Positions 2,937 through 17,975 of a stretch of DNA of 34,758 nt are shown here, in pieces. Origin of the DNA: Geodermatophilus chilensis (GTDB lineage: Bacteria > Actinomycetota > Actinomycetes > Mycobacteriales > Geodermatophilaceae). Numbering within the stretch: the first letter of the stretch is position 1; the number at the start of each line of letters is the position of its first letter. The DNA is taken from the NCBI RefSeq assembly GCF_002802985.1, contig NZ_NVPT01000036.1, positions 1 through 34,758 on the forward strand. Reading direction: 5' to 3'. The position numbers and the translations under genes are program-made. Under the pieces are notes generated by a model. That model saw only the letters and a program-made list of their open reading frames with translations. It had not been told where the DNA came from and ran no database searches.

Positions 2937-4253
2937 GTGACTCCCTGGCTCCGACGGGTCGGGCGACCCGTCCGTGGTCACGCCGCCGCGGTGGCCCTCC
3001 TGGTCCGCGGACGGGGCCGCACGGCCGCCTTCCGCGCGGCCCGCCTGACGGGGGCGACGGTCGCGGCCTTCCTCGTCGCGCAGGTCGTCGGGCTGCACAC
3101 CCCGCCACCCCTGATCGCCGCGCTCACCGCACTGCTCGTGGTGCAGGCGACGCTGAGCAGCACCCTCGTCAACGGCGTCCAGCGGGTGCTGAGCGTCGTG
3201 TCCGGCGTGGCCCTGGCGGTCCTGCTGGCCGCCGTCGTCGGCCTCACGTGGTGGAGCCTCGCGGCGCTGGTCGCCACGTCGATCCTGGTCGGTCAGCTGC
3301 TCCGGCTGGGTCCGCACCTGGTGGAGGTCCCGATCAGCGCGATGCTGGTCCTCGGCGCGTCGGGCGCGGAGTCCGTCGGCGCCGCCCGCGTGGTCGAGAC
3401 GCTCATCGGGGCGGCCGTCGGCGTGCTGGTCAACGTGGTGTTCCCGCCCGCCGTGCAGACCCGGTACGCGACGCAGGCGCTGGAGCGGTTCGCCGACGAG
3501 ATCGCCTGCCTCCTGCACGACGCGGCCTCGACCCTGCACGCCGGTCCCGTGACCCCGGAGCAGTCGACCCGCTGGCTGGAGGACGCCCGTCGCCTCAATC
3601 GGCACGCCCCCCGGGTCGACCGGGCGCTGGCCCACGCCGAGGAGAGCCGCCGGCTCAACCTCCGGGCACTGCGGGTCCCACCGGTCAGCCGGGGGACGCG
3701 GACGGGCCTGGACGCCCTCGAGCACGCCTCCGTGTCGCTGCGCACCCTGTTCCGGGCCATCGACGACGCCACCCGGGAGCGGACCGGCGTAGAGGAGGAC
3801 GCCGGCTACGCCGACATCGTGCGGCGCACCGTCGCGAGCCTTCTGGAGCGCATGGGCAACGTGGTCCAGGAGTTCGGCCGCGTGCTGGTCGACGAGGTCC
3901 GGGACGGCCGGGTCCGCGACGGCGAGGACGCCCGGGACGGCGACGGGGCGGGGCCGGACCGGCTGGCCGGGGCGCTCGAGGCGCTGCGCAGCGGCCGGTC
4001 GCTGATGCAGGACCTGCTGATCGGCGACCCGCGCAGCCACTCCGGTCTCTGGGAGATCAACTCGACGCTGCTGGCGACCATCGACCGGATGGTCGACGAG
4101 TTCGGCGCGGTGGAGCGGTCTCCGGCGCAGGGGGCCGCCGACGCCTCCCGGGCCCGGCGGGCCGCCGTCACGGCCGGGCAGCGGCTGCGGATCGCCCGCC
4201 GGTCGCCGGCCCGGCAGGGCACCGGTCCGCCGTCCGGGGACGACGTCGGCTGA
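2937..4253 (+). CDS. FUSC/aromatic-acid-exporter-like membrane protein
   Basis: This 438-residue protein has hydrophobic N-terminal segments at about residues 40-175 (TVAAFLVAQVVGL, LIAALTALLVVQ, LSVVSGVALAVLLAAVVGL, LAALVATSILVGQLL, LIGAAVGVLVNVVFPP) and then a long charged helical cytoplasmic domain. This is the layout of the FUSC and ArAE families, which include AaeB-type aromatic-acid efflux proteins and many uncharacterised actinobacterial members. The GTG at 2937 follows GAGG by a few bases, and upstream frame is low-complexity. It is divergent from the DeoR-type gene, so shared control is possible. The substrate cannot be read from sequence. Confidence 0.7.
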   Translation: MTPWLRRVGRPVRGHAAAVALLVRGRGRTAAFRAARLTGATVAAFLVAQVVGLHTPPPLIAALTALLVVQATLSSTLVNGVQRVLSVVSGVALAVLLAAVVGLTWWSLAALVATSILVGQLLRLGPHLVEVPISAMLVLGASGAESVGAARVVETLIGAAVGVLVNVVFPPAVQTRYATQALERFADEIACLLHDAASTLHAGPVTPEQSTRWLEDARRLNRHAPRVDRALAHAEESRRLNLRALRVPPVSRGTRTGLDALEHASVSLRTLFRAIDDATRERTGVEEDAGYADIVRRTVASLLERMGNVVQEFGRVLVDEVRDGRVRDGEDARDGDGAGPDRLAGALEALRSGRSLMQDLLIGDPRSHSGLWEINSTLLATIDRMVDEFGAVERSPAQGAADASRARRAAVTAGQRLRIARRSPARQGTGPPSGDDVG

Positions 4254-4382: not shown

Positions 4383-4775
4383 TCAGAGGTCGCCCTCGAG
4401 GAACTGGGCCCGGCCCAGGCCGAAGGACCAGTCCTCGCGGGTGTTGGTGGCGACGGAGACGATCAGGTCGCTGGGCGCGAGGCCGGTGGCCTCCTGCAGC
4501 CGCCGCGCCAGGCCCGCGTAGAGGGCGCGCTTCTGCGCCTCCGAGCGGCCCTGCTGGAACACCTGTAGGACCACGAGGTCCTCGGTGCGCTCGATGCCCA
4601 GGCCGGTGTCCTCGCAGATGAGCTGCCCCGGGCGGTGCTCGGTGACCACCTGGTAGCGGTCCCCGGGGGGTGCCGCGAAGACGTCCAGCATCACCTCCTG
4701 CACGGCGTCGGCGAGCGAACGGAGCTCCGCGGGCGTGCGACGTCCTTCGACGACGTCGATCCGGACGAGCGGCAT
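4383..4775 (-). CDS. Tautomerase-family protein (4-oxalocrotonate tautomerase-like)
   Basis: This 130-residue protein begins MPLVRIDVVEGR. After Met removal, Pro-1 would be the general base of the tautomerase superfamily. Its length (about twice the ~62-residue 4-OT monomer) and internal EDLVVLQVFQQGRS segment match the longer Tautomerase_2 type. Relatives catalyse keto-enol tautomerisation or dehalogenation, often in aromatic or 2-oxo-acid breakdown. The start at 4775 is required to put Pro second; 13 more in-frame residues upstream would bury it. The gene stands alone with its own promoter region, which carries the palindrome at 4821-4832. The substrate is unknown. Confidence 0.75.
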   Translation of the reverse strand: MPLVRIDVVEGRRTPAELRSLADAVQEVMLDVFAAPPGDRYQVVTEHRPGQLICEDTGLGIERTEDLVVLQVFQQGRSEAQKRALYAGLARRLQEATGLAPSDLIVSVATNTREDWSFGLGRAQFLEGDL

Positions 4776-4913: not shown

Positions 4914-5741
4914 TCAGCTGTAGGCGGTGCGGAACCGCTCGAGGGCCACGGCCGGGTCCCCCGACGCCCAGCCCTCCAGCGCGACGACGCCGTCGTAGCC
5001 GAGCCGGCGGAGCGCGCCGGCGATGGCCGGGTGGGAGATCTCCCCGGTGCCGGGCTCGCACCGGCCGGGGACGTCGGCGACCTGGATCTCCCCGACCAGC
5101 GGCAGCGCCCGCTCGACCAGCGCGATGAGGTTCCCCTCGCCGATCTGCGCGTGGTACAGGTCCAGGTTGAGCCGCAGGTGCGGGCTGCCCACCGCCTCCA
5201 CCAGCGCGATCGTGTCGGCGGCGCGGGCGAACGGCGTGCCCGGGTGGTCGACGGCGGTGTTGAGGTTCTCCAGGGTGAAGACCCGCCCGGCCCGCTCCCC
5301 CAGCGCGGCCAGCCGCTCCAGCGTGCGCGCGGCGGTGAGCCACATCGCCGGGGTCACGACCTCGGCCGGCACCACCGGCAGCCCCCGGCCGTCCAGCCCG
5401 GTGCCGTGCACGTTCAGCCGCGGGCAGTCCAGCCGCTCGGCGACCGCGAGGGACTGCTCGGCGGTGCGCAGCAGCTCCGCAGCGCCGTCCGGGTCGGCCA
5501 GGGTGCCGGTGACGTACCCGGTCATGGAGGAGAACGTCGCGCCGGTCGCGACGAGCTCGTCGACGTCCTTCGCCGTCCAGTCCCAGATCTCCACCTCGAG
5601 GCCGAGGCCGTCGATGCGCCGCACCCGCTCGGCGAACGGCAGGTCGAGGAAGAGCATCTCGGCCGAGGCGGCGAGTCGGAGGACCCCGTCCTCCCCACCC
5701 CTCGCAGGCTCGGCGCGGGACCCGGGACGGGGCCGCGTCAC
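4914..5741 (-). CDS. Sugar isomerase/epimerase, hydroxypyruvate-isomerase (Hyi)-like TIM barrel
   Basis: This 275-residue enzyme belongs to the AP-endonuclease-2/xylose-isomerase-like superfamily. Expected metal and catalytic residues are present with Hyi-like spacing: Glu158 (TLENLN), Asp194 and His197 (LDLYHAQIGEGN), Gln220 with the Hyi signature ADVPGRCEPGTGEI, and Glu256 (VALEGW). The GTG start at 5741 overlaps the TGA of the upstream dehydrogenase by 4 bp, so translation is coupled. It is the last gene of the P450 operon. Relatives isomerise hydroxypyruvate, 2-keto-inositol derivatives (IolI) or keto-sugars. Here it probably acts on the keto product of the neighbouring Gfo/Idh enzyme. 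Confidence 0.82.
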   Translation of the reverse strand: MTRPRPGSRAEPARGGEDGVLRLAASAEMLFLDLPFAERVRRIDGLGLEVEIWDWTAKDVDELVATGATFSSMTGYVTGTLADPDGAAELLRTAEQSLAVAERLDCPRLNVHGTGLDGRGLPVVPAEVVTPAMWLTAARTLERLAALGERAGRVFTLENLNTAVDHPGTPFARAADTIALVEAVGSPHLRLNLDLYHAQIGEGNLIALVERALPLVGEIQVADVPGRCEPGTGEISHPAIAGALRRLGYDGVVALEGWASGDPAVALERFRTAYS

Positions 5742-6745
5742 TTCCCCACCTGCACCGGGTGGCCGGTGCGCACCGACTCCGCCGCGGCCAGCGCGATGGC
5801 CAGCGCCGCGCGGGCGTCCTCGCCGGCCACCGGGGCCGGGCGCCCCTCGCGGACCGCCTCGACGAAGGCGCCCAGCTCGGCGGTGTACGCCCCGGGGAAG
5901 AGCTCCTGGTCGCCGCGGACGGTCTCGACCAGCCGCCCGACCGGCCCGGAGAAGGCCATCCCGCTGCGGCGACCGTCGCCCATCGTGACCATGCCGCCGG
6001 AGCCGAGCACCTCCCCGCGGACGTCGTAGCCGTAGGCGGCCTCGAAGCACGCCTCGGCCACCGCCATCGCCCCGTTGTCGAAGCGCACGGTGACGACGGC
6101 GGTGTCGAGCAGGCCGCGGTCGCGCCAGGCCGGCTCGACCAGGGCGTCGCCGATGGCGGCGACCTCCACGGCCTCGGCCCCCGGGTTGAGGAAGCGCAGC
6201 GTGTCGAAGTCGTGGATGAGCGTCTCGAGGAAGATCGTGTCCGGCAGGACGCGGGACGGGTCGAACCCGCCGGGGTCGCGGGTCAGCGAGCGCAGCAGCC
6301 GCGGGGTGCCCAGCGTCCCGGCGTCGAGCAGTGCCCGGGCGGCCCGCCAGTCCGCGGCGAACCGGCGGTTGAAGCCCACCTGGAGGACGACGCCCGCGGC
6401 GCGGGCCGCGTCGATCGCCCGGTCGGCGTCCGGCAGCGTGACCGCCATCGGCTTCTCGCAGAACACGTGCCGGCCGGCCGACGCGGCGGCCACCACCAGG
6501 TCCGCGTGCGAGCGGGCCGGCGCGGCGATGACCACCGCCTCGACCGCCGGATCCGCCCAGGCCTGGGCCACGTCGGTGCAGGCCTGCGCCCCGAGCGGGC
6601 CGGCCAGCCGCTGGGCGGCACCCGGGGCGGGATCGACCACGGCGGCCAGCCGCGCGTGCGGCAGCCGCAGGGCGAGGGTCTCGGCGTGGAAGGCGCCCAT
6701 CCGGCCCGATCCGATCAGAGCCACACCCAGCCGGTCGGTCCTCAC
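5738..6745 (-). CDS. Gfo/Idh/MocA-family NAD(P)-dependent sugar or cyclitol dehydrogenase
   Basis: This 335-residue oxidoreductase has an N-terminal Rossmann fold (ALIGSGRMGAFHAE, residues 9-22), the catalytic CEKP motif with Lys98, and a C-terminal beta-sheet substrate domain. The substrate His is His178 in FLETLIHDFDTLRFL. The residue four before it, normally Asp in IolG (D-x3-H), is Glu174 here. The GTG start at 6745 overlaps the P450 stop by 4 bp, and its own stop overlaps the isomerase start by 4 bp. It resembles inositol 2-dehydrogenases overall. Likely role: oxidation of a ring hydroxyl to a ketone in the P450 pathway. Confidence 0.86.
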   Translation of the reverse strand: MRTDRLGVALIGSGRMGAFHAETLALRLPHARLAAVVDPAPGAAQRLAGPLGAQACTDVAQAWADPAVEAVVIAAPARSHADLVVAAASAGRHVFCEKPMAVTLPDADRAIDAARAAGVVLQVGFNRRFAADWRAARALLDAGTLGTPRLLRSLTRDPGGFDPSRVLPDTIFLETLIHDFDTLRFLNPGAEAVEVAAIGDALVEPAWRDRGLLDTAVVTVRFDNGAMAVAEACFEAAYGYDVRGEVLGSGGMVTMGDGRRSGMAFSGPVGRLVETVRGDQELFPGAYTAELGAFVEAVREGRPAPVAGEDARAALAIALAAAESVRTGHPVQVGK

Positions 6746-9012
6746 AGGTCCAGCACCAGACGTGCGGTGGTGGCGCGGGAGACGCAGATCATCATGCAGT
6801 CGTCAGCCTCTCTCTCGTCCGGGCTCAGGACGGAGTCCCGGTGGTCGGGTACGCCGCCGAGGACGGCGGTCTCGCAGGTGCCGCAGGTGCCCTCGGCGCA
6901 CGAGGAGAGGACGCCGACGCCCGCCTCCTCGACGATCGAGAGGATCGACCGGCCGGGCGGGACGGTGAGGGTGAGCCCGCTGCGCACCAGTTCGACCTCG
7001 ATGGCCTCGTCCGGCGCCGTCCGCTCCTGTGGCCGGGGAGCGAAGCGCTCCACGTGCAGGGACCCCCGTGGCCAGCCGGCGCAGCGCTGCTCGACCGCCG
7101 CCAGCAGGGGCTCGGGGCCGCAGCAGTAGACGAGGGTGTCCGGCCGGGGCGTGCCGAGGAGGGTGTCGAGGTCGAGCAGCCCGGTCTCGTCCTGGGGGCG
7201 GACCGACACCCGGTCGCCGTACTGCGCCAGTTCGTCGAGGAAGGCCATGGACGCCCGCTGCCGGCCGCCGTAGACCAGTTCCCAGTCGGCGCCCGCGGCC
7301 TCCGCCGCCCGGATCATCGGCAGGACCGGCGTGATGCCGATGCCCCCGGCGACGAACAGGTACCGCGGCGAGGCCACGAGCGGGAAGTTGTTGCGCGGGC
7401 CGCGCACCCGCACCGCGTCGTCGACGGCCAGCCGGTCGTGCACGAAGCGGGAGCTGCCGCGGCCGGCCGGGTCGCGCAGGACGCCCAGGCGGTACTCCGA
7501 GCGGTCGGCCGGGTCCCCGCACAGCGAGTACTGCCGGGTGGGCGCTCCGTCGAGGACCAGGTCGACGTGCGCGCCCGGCTCCCAGGCGGGCAGCGGGCGG
7601 CCGCCGGCGTCGCGCAGGGTCAGGGCGACGACGCCCTCGGCGACCTCCTGCTTCGCGACCACCCGGGCCTCGGCCTCGAACTCCGCGGTGGCGAGGGTGA
7701 CCGACGTCGTCCGGTGGTGGACTGCCTCGACGTGGGGACGACGGCCGGTCCCGCCGAAGGTGACCGGCAGGTTCTTCCAGACGTACATGTTGGGCGAGCT
7801 CGGGTAGAACGTCGGCGGGCCGGCCAGCTCGTAGTCGCCCAGCACCGGCAGGGCCTCCTCGAGGGCGATCCGCGCCTCCAGCCGGGCCAGCGGCGCGCCC
7901 AGGCAGCCGTGCACGCCCTCCCCGAAGCCCAGGTGCCGGCCCCGGGGGCGGGTGATGTCGAAGCGGTCGGGGTCGGGGAACTGGCGCTCGTCGCGGTTGG
8001 CCGCACCCATCACCAGCACGACCCGGCCGCCGGCGGGGATGGTGACGCCGTGCAGCGTGACCTCGCGGGAGGTCGTGCGGGCGGTCAGCTGCAGCGGCGT
8101 GATGAGGCGCATGGCCTCCTCGACCGCGGCCGGGACCAGCGACGGGTCGGCCTGCAGCAGCGCCCGCTGGTCGGGGTTCTCGGCGAGCAGCTTGAACAGC
8201 GTGCCGGTCAGCCCGGCGGTGGACTCCACCCCGCCGAGGAAGAGGATCATCATCAGACCGCTGACCTCGGAGCTCGGTGTGACCTCGGCGTCCACGAACG
8301 GCACCCCGTCGATGTCGGCCTCGACGAACGCCGTGACCAGGTCCTCGCGCGCGGCGCGGCGGCGGTCCTCGAGCAGGTCGATGAAGTACTGCTGGACGCC
8401 GGCCGTCGCCGCGCGGGCCACCGGCGTCAGGTGCGGGGTGCCGGGCATCCGGTCCTTGAGCTCGTGGGTCCAGTGCTCCAGCTGCTCGCGCCGCGCGCGC
8501 TCCAGGGGGTCCGGGTCGTGCCGGCTCGGCAGGCCCATGAGGTGGAAGAAGACGTCGAAGGGCATGGGCCAGGCCAGCTCCTGGGCGAGGTCCACGGTCG
8601 CCCGGCCCCCCGCGCCACGGTCCCGCCAGGAGCCGACCAGCTCGCGCACCACCGCGCGGATGCCGTCCTCGAGCTCGGCGATCCGGCGGGGCAGGAAGTA
8701 CGGCTGCACCACCGAGCGGACCTCGGCGTGCCGCGGGTCGTCCATGCTGCCGATCGAGCCGGGCGGCACCTGCTCGAGGCGGCTGTCGTCGATGTCCATG
8801 CCCTCGAAGCTGCGGAAGGTGTCCGCGTCCAGGGCGGCCGCCCGCACGTCCTCGAAGCGGGTCAGGACGTACCAGCCCCACCGCTCGTTGTGGGCGGCGG
8901 GCGCCTCGTCGCGCAGCCGGCGGTACGCGCCGAACGGGTCGGACGTGTAGAAGTCCGGCCGGAACGGGTCGTAGTCCAGGGCGGCGGTGCGGGCGGTGGC
9001 GGTCTCGGCCAT
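6742..9012 (-). CDS. Self-sufficient cytochrome P450 fused to FMN/[2Fe-2S] reductase (CYP116B-type layout)
   Basis: This 756-residue fusion contains everything needed for NAD(P)H-driven monooxygenation. Residues 1-420 are the P450: I-helix FLGGVEST (258-265), ExxR at 299-302, and heme loop FGEGVHGCLG with Cys370. Residues ~440-660 are a phthalate-dioxygenase-reductase-like module: RQYSL for FMN (493-497) and GGIGITP (556-562) for nicotinamide. Residues ~670-756 are a plant-type [2Fe-2S] domain with Cys705, 710, 713 and 743 (C-x4-C-x2-C-x29-C). The order matches class VII P450s such as P450RhF, which often O-dealkylate. The acid-alcohol pair is Glu263-Ser264 rather than the usual Asp/Glu-Thr. 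It leads a translationally coupled operon with two sugar enzymes under a LacI-type operator, which is unusual. Confidence 0.93.
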   Translation of the reverse strand: MAETATARTAALDYDPFRPDFYTSDPFGAYRRLRDEAPAAHNERWGWYVLTRFEDVRAAALDADTFRSFEGMDIDDSRLEQVPPGSIGSMDDPRHAEVRSVVQPYFLPRRIAELEDGIRAVVRELVGSWRDRGAGGRATVDLAQELAWPMPFDVFFHLMGLPSRHDPDPLERARREQLEHWTHELKDRMPGTPHLTPVARAATAGVQQYFIDLLEDRRRAAREDLVTAFVEADIDGVPFVDAEVTPSSEVSGLMMILFLGGVESTAGLTGTLFKLLAENPDQRALLQADPSLVPAAVEEAMRLITPLQLTARTTSREVTLHGVTIPAGGRVVLVMGAANRDERQFPDPDRFDITRPRGRHLGFGEGVHGCLGAPLARLEARIALEEALPVLGDYELAGPPTFYPSSPNMYVWKNLPVTFGGTGRRPHVEAVHHRTTSVTLATAEFEAEARVVAKQEVAEGVVALTLRDAGGRPLPAWEPGAHVDLVLDGAPTRQYSLCGDPADRSEYRLGVLRDPAGRGSSRFVHDRLAVDDAVRVRGPRNNFPLVASPRYLFVAGGIGITPVLPMIRAAEAAGADWELVYGGRQRASMAFLDELAQYGDRVSVRPQDETGLLDLDTLLGTPRPDTLVYCCGPEPLLAAVEQRCAGWPRGSLHVERFAPRPQERTAPDEAIEVELVRSGLTLTVPPGRSILSIVEEAGVGVLSSCAEGTCGTCETAVLGGVPDHRDSVLSPDEREADDCMMICVSRATTARLVLDL

Positions 9013-9041
9013 GTGGGTCTCCGCGGTCGGGAGCGACTCGG

Positions 9042-9057
9042 CTTGAAGCGCTTCAAG
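9042..9057. promoter_or_regulatory. Perfect LacI/GalR-type operator of the P450 operon
   Basis: CTTGAAGC-GCTTCAAG is a perfect 16-bp palindrome with the central CG typical of LacI-family sites. It lies 30 bp upstream of the P450 ATG and just downstream of a good -35 box, where a bound repressor would block transcription. A related site lies upstream of the adjacent LacI-family gene at 10268-10281. Confidence 0.75.
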
Positions 9058-9079
9058 ACTCGCGGGTGACCCACACCAC

Positions 9080-9092
9080 TGTCAACCGGTTG
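9080..9092 (-). promoter_or_regulatory. -35 box with second palindrome in the P450 promoter
   Basis: On the minus strand, TTGACA (9085-9080) is a perfect -35 hexamer. About 17-18 bases on, a weak -10 (GAGTCT, about 9062-9057) abuts the operator. Overlapping the -35 is the perfect palindrome CAACCGGTTG (9083-9092), again with a central CG pair, a possible second LacI-type site. Confidence 0.45.
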
Positions 9093-9118
9093 TCAGGACA
9101 AAGCCCGAGCCTCGCCCG

Positions 9119-9137
9119 GCGAGATCGCCGATCTCGC
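9119..9137 (-). terminator. Hairpin after the LacI-family gene
   Basis: GCGAGATC-gcc-GATCTCGC is a perfect 8-bp stem with a 3-nt loop, 53 bp past the LacI-family stop. A second possible pairing (9133-9140 with 9157-9164) overlaps it. It separates the regulator from the P450 operon. Confidence 0.45.
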
Positions 9138-9189
9138 ACGGACACGGCCCCGGGAGCGTGCGAGGTCGCCGATCCCGCCGCGGAGGGAG

Positions 9190-10218
9190 TCAGTCCCCTC
9201 CGGGCGGCGGACCGGTCGTCCCCCGCACCACGAGCCGCGGCGGGACGACGACCTCCCGGGGCACGGTGCGGCCGCCGTCGAGCCGCTCGACCACCGCGGC
9301 GACCGCATGTCGCATCAGCTGCTGGGACTCCTGGCTGACGGTGGTCAGGTCGACGTGCGCCAGCCGCGAGAGCGGGCTGTCGTCGTAGCCCACCACCGAC
9401 ACCTCGCCGGGGACGTCCACGCCGCTGCGCAGCAGCGCGTCGAGCAGTCCGACGGCGGAGGCGTCGTTGTACGCGATGACCGCGGTCGGGGGCGTGTCGG
9501 ACGGGAACAGCGTCCGCGCCGCCCGCGCCCCGGACGCCTCGCCGTGGTCCCCCTCCACCACCTGCACGTGCGCCCCGAGCCGGTGCCGGCGCATGGCCCG
9601 CTGGTAGCCGCGCCGCCGCCCGGCGGCGATGACCCCGGACCCGCCGTCGACGTGGGCGATCCGGCGGTGCCCGAGGCCGACGAGGTGGTCGACGGCCTGC
9701 GCAACCCCCTCCTCGTCGGCGACCCGGACGACGTCCACACCGGCCGACGACACCGAGCGGCCGACGGCGACCACGGGCAGCTCCCGGCCCAGCGCGCCCA
9801 GCCGCGGGGCCGGGGCCTCCGGGCCGAGCAGGACCAGCGCCTCGCAACGGGAGTCGAGCAGCGTCTCGACCGCCCGCCCCTCGTCCCGGGTGCGGGTCAC
9901 CGTGCTCAGCACCAGGTCGTACCCGTGCTCCTCGGCCGCCTCGTGGACGTCCTCGACCAGCTGGGCGTGGAAGGTGCTGCGGACGTCCATCAGGACGCCG
10001 ATCAGCCTGCTGCGCCGGCGGGCCAGCAGACTCGCCGCGCGGTCGGGCCGGTACCCCAGCCGCGCGGCCGCGTCGAGCACCCGCTCGCGGGTGGCCTCGC
10101 TCGGCCCCGGGGCGCCGCGCAGCACGAGGGACGCCGTCGCGGGTGAGACCCCGGCCTCGGCTGCCACGTCCTGCAGCCGGGGACGACGCGGGGACTCCTC
10201 TGCGCTCAGGACGACCAC
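9190..10218 (-). CDS. LacI/GalR-family repressor of the P450 operon
   Basis: This 342-residue regulator has an N-terminal HTH (RLQDVAAEAGVSPATASLVLRG, about residues 13-34) and the LacI hinge region (AARLGYRPDRAASLLARRR). A periplasmic-binding-protein-like effector domain follows, with LIGVLMDVRSTFHAQLVEDV, AYNDASAVGLLDALL and SVVGYDDSPLSRLAHVDLTTV. The GTG at 10218 was chosen because a GAGGGAGG stretch is adjacent and the upstream frame runs into the operator; a slightly later start is possible. It lies immediately upstream of the P450 operon on the same strand. Matching operators before both genes suggest it represses that operon and itself, released by a sugar or cyclitol. Confidence 0.88.
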   Translation of the reverse strand: MVVLSAEESPRRPRLQDVAAEAGVSPATASLVLRGAPGPSEATRERVLDAAARLGYRPDRAASLLARRRSRLIGVLMDVRSTFHAQLVEDVHEAAEEHGYDLVLSTVTRTRDEGRAVETLLDSRCEALVLLGPEAPAPRLGALGRELPVVAVGRSVSSAGVDVVRVADEEGVAQAVDHLVGLGHRRIAHVDGGSGVIAAGRRRGYQRAMRRHRLGAHVQVVEGDHGEASGARAARTLFPSDTPPTAVIAYNDASAVGLLDALLRSGVDVPGEVSVVGYDDSPLSRLAHVDLTTVSQESQQLMRHAVAAVVERLDGGRTVPREVVVPPRLVVRGTTGPPPGGD

Positions 10219-10267: not shown

Positions 10268-10281
10268 TCGAAGCGCTTGAA
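10268..10281. promoter_or_regulatory. Second LacI-type operator (probable autoregulation)
   Basis: TCGAAGC-GCTTGAA shares the central AAGCGCTT core with the perfect site at 9042-9057 and differs at one position in each arm. It lies 50 bp upstream of the chosen LacI-family start. Confidence 0.55.
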
Positions 10282-10468: not shown

Positions 10469-11506
10469 TCAGGCCCCGGTCCGGTGCGGCTCGAAGGCCG
10501 CCCGCGGCCGGGGCGGCAGGCCGGCGAGCCGGTAGCAGCGGTCGATCAGTGTCATGGTCGCGACCGCGTCGTCCGGGCCGGTCGGCACCGGGGACCCGTG
10601 CCGCAGCGCCCGGATCAACGCCTCCAGCTGGTAGGTGTACGTCGTCCGGGTGCCCAGGTGCTCGGTCCGCTCGCCGGCCGGGGTGCGCACCAGGACGCGG
10701 TCGTCGCGATTCGGCTCGACGAACGCCGGCGCCGTCGCCTCCCCGCGGGTCCCGACGATCCGCAGCGAGAAGTCGCGGTCCGGGTGCACCATGCTGCAGC
10801 GCACGGCGGCGGTGGCGCCGGACGGGAAGTGCAGGTCGACGTCGAGCCACTCGTCCACGCCCGGGGCACCCGCCCGTTCCCCGGCCCGCGCGGCGTCCGG
10901 GACCGGCTCCCCTCCGGTCCACGGGGCCAGGCTGCGCAGGGCGTGCAGGCCGTAGCAGCCGAGGTCCATGAGCGCCCCGCCGGCCAGCCCGAGCGACCAC
11001 CGCGGGTCCTCGTCGTCCGGCGAGAGCATGGCGATCGTCGCCTCGACGTGCACGACGTCCCCCAGGTCGCCCGCGTCCACCAGGTCGAGCAGCCGGTGCA
11101 CCACCGGGTGGTAGAGGTGGTGGAAGCCCTCCATGACCGTGACGCCCGCAGCCCGCGCGGCGTCCCGGACCTCGGCGGCCTCCTCCGCGTTCGAGGCGAA
11201 CGGCTTCTCGGACAGCACGTGCTTGCCGGCCGCGACGGCGGCCAGGTTCCACGGACCGTGCAGCGCGTTCGGCAGCGGGTTGTAGATCACCTCGACGTCC
11301 GGATCGGCGAGGACGTCCGCGTAGGTGGGCAGCACGCGCTCGACGCCGTGCGCCCGGGCGAACGCCTCGGCCCGCGCCGGGTCCCGGGCGGCGAGCGCCA
11401 CCAGCCGGCTGCCGGTGTCCCGCGCGGGAACCGCGATGCCCCGCCCGGCGATGCGGGCGGCACCCAGGACCCCGATCCGCAGGGGCTCGACCGGGTCCGT
11501 CGTCAC
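10469..11506 (-). CDS. Gfo/Idh/MocA-family oxidoreductase (xylose/dihydrodiol dehydrogenase-like)
   Basis: This 345-residue enzyme starts with a Rossmann fold (RIGVLGAARIAG), carries SEKPFASN with Lys101, and contains MEGFHHLYHP and GGALMDLGCYGLHALRSL. These are typical of the branch that includes NADP-dependent D-xylose dehydrogenase, glucose-fructose oxidoreductase and dimeric dihydrodiol dehydrogenase rather than IolG proper. The GTG start at 11506 overlaps the IolG stop by 4 bp (GTGA), so the two are translationally coupled. It probably oxidises a pyranose or keto-cyclitol related to the IolG product; the substrate is not determinable. Confidence 0.83.
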   Translation of the reverse strand: MTTDPVEPLRIGVLGAARIAGRGIAVPARDTGSRLVALAARDPARAEAFARAHGVERVLPTYADVLADPDVEVIYNPLPNALHGPWNLAAVAAGKHVLSEKPFASNAEEAAEVRDAARAAGVTVMEGFHHLYHPVVHRLLDLVDAGDLGDVVHVEATIAMLSPDDEDPRWSLGLAGGALMDLGCYGLHALRSLAPWTGGEPVPDAARAGERAGAPGVDEWLDVDLHFPSGATAAVRCSMVHPDRDFSLRIVGTRGEATAPAFVEPNRDDRVLVRTPAGERTEHLGTRTTYTYQLEALIRALRHGSPVPTGPDDAVATMTLIDRCYRLAGLPPRPRAAFEPHRTGA

Positions 11507-12510
11507 CGGTACAGAGCCGGCCGCTCGGGGAGCTCCACGGCCACCCGGCCCCCGGAGTGCAGCGAGCGCAGCGCCGCGTCCGAGACGACCTGCGCGGCGT
11601 AGCCGTCCCAGGCGCTGGGCCCCTGCGGTGGCGCCGCGGTGACGACGGTGTCCACCCACTCGCGCAGTTCGACGTCGTAGGAGAGCGCGAAGCGCTCCCG
11701 CCAGTCGGCCGGGACCAGACCGGCGACGGCGCCCTCGCGGCGCAGGCGCACCGGAGCGGGGTCGGCCAGCTCGACGGTGCCGGTCTCCCCCGACACCTCG
11801 CAGCGGATCTCGTAGCCGTAGTGGACGTTGACCGACACCTCGACGTCGGCGAGGACGCCGTCGGCCAGCTCGAACAGCACGAGCAGCGGGTCCTGCAGCT
11901 CGCCCCCGCGGCTGCTCCTCCGCGGGGTGAAGACCTGCGCGGCGACGATCTCCTGGCCGAACAGCCAGCGCAGCTCGTCGATCTCGTGGATGGCCGTGTC
12001 GGCGATCGACATGTCCCGCGTGTAGTGCGGCGGGACCGAGGCGTTGCGGTGGGCGCAGTGCACGAGCAGCGGGGCGCCGATCGCGCCGCCGTCCACCGCC
12101 TGCTTGAGCGCCCGGTGGGCGGGGTCGTAGCGGCGGTTGAAGCCGACCTGTACCAGCCGGCGGCCGGCGGCGACCTCGGCGTCGACGATCCGCCGGCACG
12201 CCTCCTGCGTGGTCGCCAGCGGCTTCTCGCAGAACACCGGCCTGCCCGCGGCGATGCACGCCAGCACGTACGGCTCGTGCGTCGGCCCCCAGGAGGTGAC
12301 GACCACCGCGTCGACCGCGTCGGAGGCGATCAGCTCCTCGCCGCCGGGCAGGGCCTTGGCGGCGGGCAGCTGCGCGGCCACGGTCGCGGCGCGTTCGACG
12401 TCCGCATCGGCCACCGCCACCACCCGGCTGCCCCCCGGGCCGCCGTCGAGCCGGCCGATGTGCGCCTGGCCGATCATGCCGACCCCGATGACCCCGACGT
12501 CCAGCCCCAC
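11503..12510 (-). CDS. iolG: Inositol 2-dehydrogenase (IolG-type Gfo/Idh/MocA)
   Basis: This 335-residue enzyme closely fits IolG, which oxidises myo-inositol (and often D-chiro-inositol) to the inosose with NAD. It shows GVIGVGMIGQAHIGRL at the nucleotide site. Lys96 (CEKP), Asp171 and His175 (DTAIHEIDELRWLFG) correspond with an offset of one to the Lys97/Asp172/His176 triad known from Bacillus IolG. The GTG at 12510 is preceded by GGAGGG. It is followed without a gap by a second Gfo/Idh gene. A site at 12593-12607 upstream resembles two others around the LacI-type/AKR promoters. IolE, IolB, IolC and IolD are absent from the window, so if inositol is the substrate the rest must lie elsewhere. 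Confidence 0.82.
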   Translation of the reverse strand: MGLDVGVIGVGMIGQAHIGRLDGGPGGSRVVAVADADVERAATVAAQLPAAKALPGGEELIASDAVDAVVVTSWGPTHEPYVLACIAAGRPVFCEKPLATTQEACRRIVDAEVAAGRRLVQVGFNRRYDPAHRALKQAVDGGAIGAPLLVHCAHRNASVPPHYTRDMSIADTAIHEIDELRWLFGQEIVAAQVFTPRRSSRGGELQDPLLVLFELADGVLADVEVSVNVHYGYEIRCEVSGETGTVELADPAPVRLRREGAVAGLVPADWRERFALSYDVELREWVDTVVTAAPPQGPSAWDGYAAQVVSDAALRSLHSGGRVAVELPERPALYR

Positions 12511-12592
12511 GGCGCCCTCCTCGACTCCGTCGCGGCCCGTCGCGGTGCCGCGCCGGCTCCAGGCTGTGGGCCCGACCACAGCGGGGTCAACG

Positions 12593-14663: not shown

Positions 14664-15851
14664 ATGACCACCCTGACTCCCACCGGACGTGCCCCCGGCT
14701 GGTTCACCGCGGACGACTGCCGCCTCGAGGACTTCCGCGCCGTCGTCGAGACGACCACCGACCTGGCCGACTACCCCTCCGCCGACGAGCTCCGGGAGGA
14801 CGTCCTGGTCTACGGGGCGCGGCTGCGCGACTCCGTCGCCACCCCCGAGGGGCGCCGGGACGTACAGGCCGAGCTGGCCCGGGCGCTCGCCGACGGTCCG
14901 GGGATCGTCGTCCTCGCCGGCGCCTTCCCCGACACGGCGGTGGTCGACCGCGCCACCGCCGTCTTCGAGGCGATGATCGCCGAGCAGAAGGCGGCCGGCG
15001 TCGTCGGTGGCGACCACTTCGCCACGCCCGGCGCCAACGACCGCGTCTGGGGAGCGCTGGACAAGTTCGCCGTCCGGGACCCGGAGGCCTTCGCCGCCTA
15101 CTACGGCAACGACCTGATCGCGCTCGTCTCCGAGGCGTGGCTGGGCCGCGGCTACCAGGTCACCAGCCAGGTCAACGTGGTCAACCCCGGGGGGAAGGCG
15201 CAGGTCGCCCACCGCGACTACCACCTCGGCTTCATGTCCGAGGAGCAGGCCCTGGCCTACCCGGCGCACGTGCATCGGCTCTCCCCGGTGATGACCCTGC
15301 AGGGCGCGGTCGCCCACTGCGACATGCCGGTGGAGACCGGGCCGACGATGTACCTGCCGCACTCGCAGAAGTACGCCCTGGGCTACGTCGCCTTCCACCG
15401 GCCGGAGTTCACCGCGTACTTCGACGAGCACTTCGTCCAGCTGCCGCTGCGGAAGGGTGACGCCGCCTTCTTCAACCCCGCGCTGTTCCACGGTGCCGGC
15501 ACCAACCGCTCGGCCGACGTGCGCCGCATGGCCAACCTGCTGCAGGTCTCCTCCGCCTTCGGCCGGGCGATGGAGACCGTCGACCGGACGGCGATGTGCC
15601 GGGCGCTCCATCCGGTGCTGCGCGCGTGGAAGACCACCGGCGCGGACGAGCGCACCCTGCGGAACGTCGTCGCCGCCTCCGCCGAGGGCTACGCCTTCCC
15701 GACCGACCTCGACCGCGACCAGCCGATCGGCGGCCTGGCCCCCGAGACGCAGGCCGAGCTGGTCTGGCGGGCGCTGCAGGAGGACTGGTCACCCGAGGCG
15801 CTGGACGCCGAGCTCTTCGCCCAGGCCGAGCGGCACACCAGCGGCCACTGA
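14664..15851 (+). CDS. Phytanoyl-CoA dioxygenase (PhyH)-family Fe(II)/2-oxoglutarate oxygenase
   Basis: This 395-residue double-stranded beta-helix oxygenase has metal ligands His183 and Asp185 (VAHRDYH) and His276 (NPALFHGAGTNRS), with Arg287/288 placed to hold 2-oxoglutarate. VETGPTMYLPHSQKYALGY is the usual GP-hS stretch before the distal His. The ATG at 14664 follows AGGA. The length exceeds the ~300-residue minimum because of an N-terminal helical extension (residues 1-100). PhyH-like enzymes hydroxylate or demethylate many small molecules, including sugars and cyclitol-like antibiotics. In this locus it may act on the same compound as the P450; the substrate is unknown. Confidence 0.85.
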   Translation: MTTLTPTGRAPGWFTADDCRLEDFRAVVETTTDLADYPSADELREDVLVYGARLRDSVATPEGRRDVQAELARALADGPGIVVLAGAFPDTAVVDRATAVFEAMIAEQKAAGVVGGDHFATPGANDRVWGALDKFAVRDPEAFAAYYGNDLIALVSEAWLGRGYQVTSQVNVVNPGGKAQVAHRDYHLGFMSEEQALAYPAHVHRLSPVMTLQGAVAHCDMPVETGPTMYLPHSQKYALGYVAFHRPEFTAYFDEHFVQLPLRKGDAAFFNPALFHGAGTNRSADVRRMANLLQVSSAFGRAMETVDRTAMCRALHPVLRAWKTTGADERTLRNVVAASAEGYAFPTDLDRDQPIGGLAPETQAELVWRALQEDWSPEALDAELFAQAERHTSGH

Positions 15852-16095: not shown

Positions 16096-16911
16096 TCAGC
16101 GCTTGAGCTCGTGCGAGAGCTCGGCGAGCTCCTGGCCGCCGGCCATCTCGGTGGTGAGCTCCTCGAGCGAGACCTCCGAGCGCTTCTTGTCCAGCACCCG
16201 GCGGCCGAGCTTGAGGATGATGAAGTGGTCGCCGACCAGGTAGGCGTGGTGCGGGTTGTGGGTGATGAAGACGACCCCGAGGCCGGCGTCGCGGGCCGCG
16301 GCGGTGTACTTCAGCACCACGCCGGACTGCTTGACGCCCAGCGCCGCCGTCGGCTCGTCGAGGATGAGCACCCGCGCGCCGAAGTACACCGCCCGGGCGA
16401 TGGCGACGCACTGCCGCTGACCACCGGAGAGCGTGCCGATCGGCTGGTTGATGTCCTTGACGTGGATGCCCATCTTCTGCAGCTCGGCGTCGGCGACCTC
16501 CCGCATGGCCTTGATGTCCAGCGGCGCCAGCGGGTACCTCCCCTTGCGCAGCTCCGAGCCGAGGAAGAAGTTCCGCCAGACCTCCATGAGGCCCACGACG
16601 GCGAGATCCTGGTAGACGGTGGCGATCCCGGCGTCCAGGGACTCCCGCGGCGAGCTGAAGTGCCGCTCCTGGCCGTCGACCCGCAGGGTGCCCTCGGTGT
16701 GCGGGTGCAGGCCCGAGATGATCTTGATGAGGGTGGACTTGCCGGCGCCGTTGTCCCCCAGCACGCAGGCCACCTCACCGGCGTTGACCGTCAGGTTGAT
16801 GCCCTCGAGCGCGCGGATGGCGCCGTAGGCCTTGCCGACGCCCTCCATCTCGACGAGTGGCGTGCCGGCCCTGAGGTCTGCCGCCGCGTGCTCGGCGATG
16901 GTGTCGGTCAT
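16096..16911 (-). CDS. Sugar ABC transporter ATP-binding protein (FrcA-type, single domain)
   Basis: This 271-residue ATPase has Walker [10 protein letters not shown] (residues 52-60), Q-loop Gln101, signature LSGGQRQ (161-167), Walker B VLILDEP with Glu186 and switch His218 ([16 protein letters not shown]). It has one nucleotide-binding domain, unlike the doubled RbsA/MglA ATPases, so it works as a homodimer as in the fructose importer FrcA. The THNPHHAY motif is typical of that group. The ATG at 16911 lies 2 bases after the permease stop. It completes a binding protein-permease-ATPase operon. Confidence 0.92.
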
Positions 16912-16913
16912 GG

Positions 16914-17975
16914 TCACTTCCTCCGGGCGGCGTAGTTCTTGACGTACAGGTTGACGAGGACGGCGAGCAGGAGCATCACGCCGAGGAAGGTGCGGAACCA
17001 GTTCGGGTCCCAGCCGGCGAAGACGATCCCCTGCGTGGTCATCCCGAAGATGAAGGCACCCAGCGCCGACCCCACCGCCGAGCCGTACCCGCCGGTCAGC
17101 AGGGCACCGCCGACGACCGCGGCGATGATGTAGATGAACTCGTTGCCGACCCCGAGGCCGGACTGCACCGAGCTGAAGTTGAACAGCAGGTGCATGCCGA
17201 GGAACCAGGCCAGGAAGGCCACGCCCATGAACAGGCCGATCTTGACCCTGGGCACCGGGACGCCGACGGCCCGGGCGCTGGCCTGGTTGCCACCCGAGGC
17301 GAAGACCCAGTTGCCGACCCGGGTGCGCAGCAGCAGCCAGGTGGCGACCGCGACGAACAGGAACCACCACAGCACGGTGATCTTCAACGTGATGAACCCC
17401 AGGTCCACGTCCCCGGCGAAAACCGCCCGGGCGGACGCGAACCCGTCCAGCGAGCTGGCGTTGGGCGTGGCCACCGCCCCGGTGACCAGCTTGGTCACGC
17501 CCAGGTTGATGCCCTGCAGGATGAAGAACGTCGACAGCGTGATCAGGAAGCTGGGGATCCCGGTGCGCATCACCAGCCAGCCGTTGACGAAGCCGATCGC
17601 CAGCGCGATGAGCAGGCTGACCACGACACCGACCCACATGTTCAGGCTGAACTGGTAGGTCAGCATCGCCGCGGCCAGCGCCGAGGTCGTCACCGCGACA
17701 CCGGACGACAGGTCGAACTCGCCACCGATCATCAGCAGCGCGACACCCACCGCCACGATGCCGATGGTCGAGGACGCGTAGAGGACCGTCGCGAACGCCG
17801 GCAGCGTCCGGAACGGCTCGGCGACCACGTAGAAGAAGGCGAAGATGGCGATCGCCGCAGCGAGGGCGCCGATCTCCGGCCGGGCCAGCACGCGCGACAG
17901 GAGCGACCGCTGCGTGCGCACCGGCGGGGCGGCCGCACGCGGGGCGGACGGCTGGGTCGCCACGGATGAGCTCAT
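16914..17975 (-). CDS. Sugar ABC transporter permease (RbsC/FrcC-type)
   Basis: This 353-residue membrane protein of the BPD_transp_2 family has about nine or ten hydrophobic segments. Family motifs include [50 protein letters not shown] and [26 protein letters not shown]. It forms the channel of the sugar importer as a dimer. The ATG at 17975 follows TTGGAG. A strong hairpin (18005-18040) separates it from the binding-protein gene, consistent with lower expression than the latter. Confidence 0.92.

Follow-up and report, generated by a model that had tools for sequence, protein, structure and literature searches.

Self-sufficient cytochromes P450 of class VII, the CYP116B or P450 RhF type, carry a haem domain, an FMN reductase domain and a C-terminal [2Fe-2S] domain on a single chain. 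The function described for CYP116B enzymes is the turnover or degradation of 2-hydroxyphenylacetate (PMC8449657, PMC11889516, PMC12126322), with OhpA and CYP116B234 placed in the degradation of this compound (PMC8449657; PMC11889516), and alkanes are mentioned for CYP116B5 (PMC11889516). A P450 from marine Flavobacteriia is reported to demethylate 6-O-methyl-D-galactose within a catabolic locus, freeing formaldehyde (PMC10033563). This study concerns a stretch of 34,758 nucleotides (the window), which is the whole of contig NZ_NVPT01000036.1 of Geodermatophilus chilensis, and in it a gene module made up of a P450-reductase fusion, a Gfo/Idh/MocA dehydrogenase (Gfo1) and a Hyi/OtnI-like TIM-barrel protein (Hyi). 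The data suggest, with moderate confidence, that this is an accessory module of inositol catabolism, in which most likely an O-methyl inositol would be demethylated, oxidised and isomerised into the inositol (iol) pathway. A bolder proposal, which is put forward tentatively and with slightly less than even confidence, is that the P450 represents an undescribed family, still unfused in some close relatives, whose union with a phthalate-type reductase arose separately from that of CYP116B, and that it serves as the entry enzyme by which plant methyl inositols are demethylated and then passed by Gfo1 and Hyi into inositol catabolism.

Two further systems invite comparison. In rhizopine catabolism mocDEF performs the demethylation and MocD is not a P450, while in B. 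subtilis IolI is the TIM-barrel isomerase partner of IolG, a pair that the dehydrogenase and TIM-barrel isomerase of the window resemble in kind. Rhizobia are described as catabolising a methylated amino-inositol via an oxygenase complex and the inositol pathway (PMC10107442, PMC3538637), and next to the mocDEF genes, which act along with mocABC, a LacI/GalR-family regulator and a PF01261 TIM-barrel gene are found in some rhizobia (PMC3538637). The rhizopine system differs from the window in its oxygenase type, in its amino-inositol substrate and in belonging to Proteobacteria. In B. subtilis, the routes for D-chiro-, myo- and scyllo-inositol meet at scyllo-inosose, and the pathway figure includes 1-keto-D-chiro-inositol (PMC5504672); the iol operon as described there has no oxygenase, and the Gfo1 and Hyi of the window score under the IolG, Hyi and OtnI cut-offs. 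The marine P450 demethylase shares the proposed chemistry, that is, oxidative removal of a methyl group from a hydroxyl-rich ring within a catabolic locus. However, as described it draws on a ferredoxin and a ferredoxin reductase that are separate proteins, and it acts on a pyranose during the degradation of porphyran, whereas the window has a fusion with iol neighbours; the likeness is one of proposed chemistry. All three parallels are analogies, not homologies.

Methyl inositols, pinitol and quebrachitol among them, are carbohydrates that abound in plants; they are described as a major part of the carbohydrates in many plants (PMC5889025), and ononitol and pinitol are named as abundant cyclitols in the context of rhizopine biosynthesis (PMC6668481). 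Among the matches listed in a search of the open-access literature, no P450 was tied to inositol or methyl-inositol catabolism and no enzyme was named for bacterial demethylation of methyl inositols, which is weak evidence because subscription journals lie mostly outside that search. The module is a testable candidate for methyl-inositol demethylation in actinobacteria, several of which are named type strains.

The three genes lie on the minus strand in the order P450 (6742-9012, 756 aa; Pfam PF00067, PF00175 and PF00111), Gfo1 (5738-6745, 335 aa; Pfam GFO_IDH_MocA, inositol 2-dehydrogenase-like) and Hyi (4914-5741, 275 aa; PF01261, AP_endonuc_2, an isomerase or epimerase by likeness), and the Hyi reading frame sits within a longer ORF at 4914-6050 (-). 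The sequence GTGA (TCAC on the plus strand) forms a 4-bp overlap both between P450 and Gfo1 (6742-6745) and between Gfo1 and Hyi (5738-5741). Upstream of the P450 lies a LacI-family regulator gene on the minus strand (9190 to about 10209; PF00356 and PF13377), the start codon of which is uncertain. Because homologues at 63-92% identity keep their neighbours, these are real genes. The junction between P450 and Gfo1 is not universal, since a second LacI gene separates the two in 9 of the 18 P450-carrying genomes of the window's family.

An exact 14-bp palindrome, TTGAAGCGCTTCAA, is found at 9043-9056 upstream of the P450, and a second copy with 2 mismatches lies at 10268-10281 upstream of the LacI gene, against 0.04 matches expected in the window from shuffles. 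Both sites are probable LacI operators. When the loci of relatives were compared, the 8-bp core of the palindrome was present in 18 of 22 P450-clade loci vs 1 of 10 among the more distant fusions (L077-L086). In Actinomycetospora (L017, L019, L020) the core is next to a LacI/PhyH pair instead of standing directly beside the P450, and none was found in L015, L016, L074 and L075. An earlier note on this DNA had described a fusion, a Gfo/Idh dehydrogenase and a Hyi-like gene joined by two GTGA overlaps under a LacI-type operator, and the ORFs, the overlaps, the Pfam assignments and the exact palindrome all agree with that description.

The evidence that ties this module to inositol comes from relatives. 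The P450 has 13 named relatives that are full-length or nearly so and 63-89% identical (L009-L021), 7 of which are also among the family genomes below by matching coordinates. P450-clade genomes comprise 18 in the window's family (out of 112 genomes, E <=1e-150) and six from elsewhere, namely a Nocardioidaceae metagenome-assembled genome (L015), Pseudonocardia (L016), Actinomycetospora (L017, L019, L020) and Nocardioides (L018). L076 repeats L010 and was excluded from counts; reductase-only matches (L022-L024) and distant P450s with no reductase match nearby (L025-L066) were excluded from neighbourhood counts. Gene calls in relatives are crude, being based on GC at third codon positions (GC3), and presence was judged by tblastn with reference proteins; the co-occurrence statistics ignore kinship throughout.

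Within the window's family the P450 is present in 18 of 112 genomes and iolD in 33 of 112, and the two overlap in 18 of 18 P450 genomes (hypergeometric p 3.7e-12). At the genus level iolD is found in 12/12 P450 genomes vs 20/26 overall (p 0.013). The six P450-clade genomes from outside the family all carry iolD over cut-off as well, which brings the total to 24 of 24. In 16 of these 24 (11 of the 18 family genomes plus L016, L017, L018, L019 and L020) iolD lies on the same contig as the P450, 4.6-18.2 kb away, so that linkage to iol genes spans the window's family, Pseudonocardia, Actinomycetospora and Nocardioides. Curated models place IolD and IolB over cut-off both near the P450 of Pseudonocardia L016 and on contig C40 of the window's own genome. 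MMSDH/IolA is also over cut-off near the P450 in relatives, where IolE and a chiro-type IolG are the best families, under cut-off. In Nocardioides L018 the P450 and the iol genes share a contig and are 18 kb apart.

In the other 8 of the 24 genomes iolD is on a different contig from the P450, and the window's genome is one of these, with the P450 on C290 (the window itself) and iolD on C40. However, when the contig ends were placed on the syntenic stretch of a relative (G056), the left end of the window (base 279) and the start of C40 (base 23) matched positions 3023 and 3067. Because the two ends match neighbouring places in G056, C40 very probably abuts the left end of the window.

The partner genes follow the P450. 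Gfo1 is found in 18 of 112 family genomes (E <=1e-100), 17 of them in common with the P450, and Hyi in 16 of 112 (E <=1e-80). In G097 the P450 is present and Gfo1 is in pieces; in G094 the iol genes have Gfo1 and Hyi beside them, along with a reductase where the contig ends, and the P450 would fall past that end. Hyi was not found beside the P450 in G060, where the contig ends inside Gfo1, nor in G097 and G098. When the iolD-positive genomes that have no P450 were considered, 14 of 15 lacked both Gfo1 and Hyi at the cut-offs used. The triad thus follows the P450 and occurs only where iolD does, while iolD is often found alone, as would be expected if the triad feeds in a special substrate. The link to cyclitol metabolism suggested in the earlier note is thereby well supported and sharpened to the inositol pathway, given iolD in 24/24 genomes, its distance of at most 18.2 kb in 16/24, and the likeness of Gfo1 to inositol dehydrogenases.

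Nine loci of other P450-reductase proteins (L078-L086, haem domain 28-32% identical) served as controls, with about 10 kb read on each side. At E <=1e-15 none of them gave a match to the IolB, IolD, IolE, chiro IolG, Gfo1, Hyi or other Gfo and TIM-barrel references, and four of the nine gave generic aldehyde dehydrogenases only, at 34-38%. At the genome level iolD was found in 3 of 9 control genomes vs 24 of 24 clade genomes (Fisher p 7.6e-5). These control loci are not independent, since L078 and L079 share a genus label, and L086 has an in-frame stop between its haem and reductase parts.

Gfo1 is by sequence nearest to inositol 2-dehydrogenases, its best PDB matches being 3EZY and then 4HKT (inositol 2-dehydrogenase). 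The catalytic residues of IolG inositol 2-dehydrogenases are Lys, Asp and His. Gfo1 keeps the Lys (in EKP) and the His, and four residues before the His it has Glu in all 15 distinct rows, window included, at a position that is Asp in 3EZY and in the IolG of the iol operon of L009. The PDB matches of Hyi are 3NGF and 1K77. A separate IolG-like gene is already present in the iol operon.

Taken together with the known pathway, these genes suggest the following route, which as regards substrate, demethylation, step order, cofactors and the regulator's effector is a prediction from gene content and context. The cell would import an inositol derivative that the usual iol enzymes are unable to process, most likely an O-methyl inositol, for example pinitol, ononitol, sequoyitol or quebrachitol. 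The P450, receiving electrons from NAD(P)H via FMN and [2Fe-2S], would hydroxylate the methoxy carbon, and the resulting hemiacetal would decay to formaldehyde and free inositol. This inositol, for instance D-chiro-inositol if the substrate was pinitol, would be oxidised to a keto-inositol by the IolG-like dehydrogenase. A shift of the keto group by the Hyi-like TIM barrel would give scyllo-inosose, which would then pass through IolE, IolD, IolB and IolA. The LacI repressor would control the module at TTGAAGCGCTTCAA.

Co-occurrence and linkage with iol genes do not by themselves single out a methyl group, as the genomes would look no different if the P450 hydroxylated a deoxyinositol or attacked a conjugate. 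It is conceivable, but unlikely, that the P450 hydroxylates a ring carbon of a deoxyinositol (quercitol) or another inositol C-H to yield an inositol or inosose with no methyl group involved. This would explain why an oxygenase, a dehydrogenase and an isomerase are all needed. However, methyl inositols, being described as a major part of the carbohydrates in many plants (PMC5889025), are the commoner feed, and P450 demethylation of a sugar ether has already been reported from marine bacteria (PMC10033563).

The P450 fusion consists of a haem domain (about residues 1-420), an FMN/NAD(P)H reductase (about 436-642) and a C-terminal plant-type [2Fe-2S] domain (677-748), corresponding to Pfam p450, NAD_binding_1 and Fer2, and this is the CYP116B class VII domain order. 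At full length the nearest solved chains in the PDB are 6KBH and 6LAA, the latter being CYP116B46, with much of the score supplied by the reductase; the reductase part matches phthalate dioxygenase reductase (2PIA). The electron path from NAD(P)H through FMN and [2Fe-2S] to the haem follows from the family, with FMN predicted by likeness to phthalate dioxygenase reductase. The haem domain has the sequence features of an active P450: the haem-ligand Cys motif FGEGVHGCLG, the ExxR motif as EEAMR, and the I-helix acid-alcohol pair in GGVEST.

The haem domain itself is a different matter. P450s are generally assigned to the same CYP family above about 40% identity and to the same subfamily above about 55%, and the haem domain of the window is 29.4% identical to 6LAA, under both CYP116B thresholds, whereas L084 reaches 61.8%. 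In a PDB search with the haem domain only, 6KBH and 6LAA were absent from the best 60 of 84 matches (E <=1e-40). The alignment leaves out five P450 rows whose trimmed reading contains an in-frame stop, and the tree leaves out nine more (eight unfused rows and the duplicate L076). In the haem tree the window's P450 clade and CYP116B formed separate clades with 100/100 support each, and a joint clade was rejected (approximately unbiased [AU] test, p 0.009), with long branches as a caveat in both cases. Membership of CYP116B was rejected on these grounds. The description "CYP116B-type" in the earlier note therefore stands for the domain order and fails for the haem domain, and the window's clade differs further in having unfused relatives and inositol-gene neighbours.

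The clade also has features of its own. The usual I-helix Thr is replaced by Ser in 22/22 clade rows, while Thr is kept in 49 of 52 rows outside. P450s usually recognise their substrate in the region between the B and C helices. In this region a clade-specific acidic stretch, EGxDxDD, is kept in 22/22 rows (one row has D for the first E), the alignment being less sure outside the clade, and such a stretch would suit a polyol ligand. An AlphaFold2 model of the haem domain (pLDDT 88) has the P450 fold, and a structure search with it gave generic P450s among the matches listed (CYP125, CYP124, CYP108 and others), with no hint as to substrate.

It also appears unlikely on these data that the target of the P450 is the non-sugar moiety of a conjugate of inositol or a sugar, such as an aromatic or terpene ether or ester, whereby the polyol would be freed for the neighbouring enzymes. 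In favour of this reading, the window and several relatives have a FUSC/ArAE-type exporter gene and a tautomerase next to the module, the same loci contain extra TIM barrels and a levoglucosan-dehydrogenase-like Gfo, and characterised CYP116B fusions act on an aromatic acid. However, the haem domain is not that of CYP116B, and no aromatic ring-cleavage family was found among the part of the genes of the window and relatives that was scanned. Homologues acting on aromatic substrates and lacking sugar-gene neighbours, which the earlier note had regarded as contrary evidence, were not seen for the clade, and no characterised member of it was found.

Several observations weigh against a methyl-inositol module as proposed here. 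Both partner enzymes score under every curated NCBIfam cut-off: Gfo1 reaches 294.7 bits against 355 for TIGR04380 (iolG, its best NCBIfam), and Hyi reaches 114.5 of 353 bits for TIGR03234 and 98.2 of 325 bits for NF043033. Only in the window's family is the triad complete with Gfo1. In the stretches read of L015 (a 9-kb contig), L016 and L018 there is no Hyi and no Gfo1 orthologue (a Gfo at 31-32% or none), and the Actinomycetospora loci (L017, L019, L020) have Hyi at 73-74% and a Gfo at just 36-37%. Beyond that family, the partner genes vary. In L018 the P450 is separated from the iol genes by threonate/gluconate-type genes, and in L077 (haem about 50% identical) iolD is about 650 kb away with no iol neighbour. 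The module neighbourhood also holds levoglucosan-dehydrogenase-like and other sugar genes, and a glycoside is therefore a possible substrate. The palindrome core was looked for on the own-genome iol contig C40, as a sign of co-regulation of the module and the iol genes, and was not found. No formaldehyde gene was seen in linkage with the module, and mycothiol-dependent formaldehyde dehydrogenases were found neither on the module's contig nor on C40. The window's genome (G000) does have three such enzymes over cut-off, on contigs C317, C311 and C2, which are unlinked and give weak support. An alcohol dehydrogenase near the Pseudonocardia P450 was considered as a formaldehyde gene and rejected, as it scored far below the formaldehyde-dehydrogenase cut-off.

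It is improbable that a sugar or sugar acid carrying a methyl group or some other modification is the substrate, with the iol genes only frequent neighbours in a sugar-catabolism island, as the LacI gene, the several Gfo/Idh genes, the ribose-type ABC importer, the Hyi/OtnI-like isomerase and the threonate-type genes adjoining the P450 in Nocardioides might suggest, because iolD is present in every P450-clade genome, though in only 33 of 112 family genomes overall, and is linked to the P450 in four separate groups.

The P450 clade includes fused, split and reductase-less forms. In three genomes of the window's family (G035, G052, G060) the haem and reductase parts are separate adjacent genes, and next to the haem genes of G096, G097 and G098 no complete reductase gene was found. 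At the level of loci, L070, L071 and L072 are the split forms, and in L073, L074 and L075 no whole reductase gene was seen. A 37-residue piece matching the C-terminal end of the reductase lies downstream of Gfo1 in G098 (L075:619-729) and looks like a remnant. In the haem tree the fused forms of G056 and G057 nest among split forms, and a single fused clade was rejected (AU p 0.002); in the reductase tree G056 and G057 are sisters of the split forms. Therefore, there was more than one gain or loss of the fusion, or else an exchange of domains. In the class sample, matches to the reductase alone, at 55-68%, are widespread. A plasmid search with the P450 gave 107 records, of which the 15 listed were all 31-46% identical, and 7 of the 107 fell in the 60-80% band. 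Fused, adjacent and reductase-less forms in one P450 clade offer a natural series for the origin of self-sufficient P450s, and the clade adds fusions outside CYP116B with a readable genomic context. Seven of the more distant proteins (L078-L083 and L085) are also P450-reductase fusions; their haem domains share about 30% identity with the window's clade and are likewise not close to CYP116B, which suggests that there are further fused P450 families in Actinomycetes.

Other genes of the window have counterparts in the relatives. A sugar-type MFS transporter gene (357-1901, -; PF00083, 354.5 bits) has homologues that adjoin iol genes in L069, L087, L089, L090, L095 and L097. Two more Gfo/Idh dehydrogenases are syntenic neighbours of the module on the minus strand: the first (10469-11509; PF01408) is conserved in relatives, and the second (11503-12579), called from its GC3 pattern and conservation, is 86-94% identical in relatives and 44-46% identical to a Gfo/Idh gene of their iol operons. 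A ribose-type ABC importer (ATPase and permease, 16096-17975, -; PF00005 and PF02653) has counterparts near the P450 in the split or haem-only relatives L070-L074, with the ATPase only in L072 and no permease matched in L070. Many family relatives have a TIM barrel and a levoglucosan-dehydrogenase-like Gfo that run divergently from the LacI gene of the module (e.g. L009:4456-6672, -), and these were not seen at the corresponding place in the window. A Tautomerase_2 gene lies downstream of Hyi in the window (4383-4775, -) and in L012, L014, G043, G047 and G056, and the Nocardioides locus has a 65% homologue of it (L018:16296-16682). A PhyH-type Fe(II)/2-oxoglutarate dioxygenase gene, syntenic in relatives (14664-15851, +; PF05721), recurs with the module (L017:3290-4423; L088:10612-11790) and may act in the same pathway as another oxidative dealkylase or hydroxylase. 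In Actinomycetospora the PhyH gene comes first after the LacI palindrome, in a gene row with Gfo, TIM-barrel and Hyi genes that ends in the P450.

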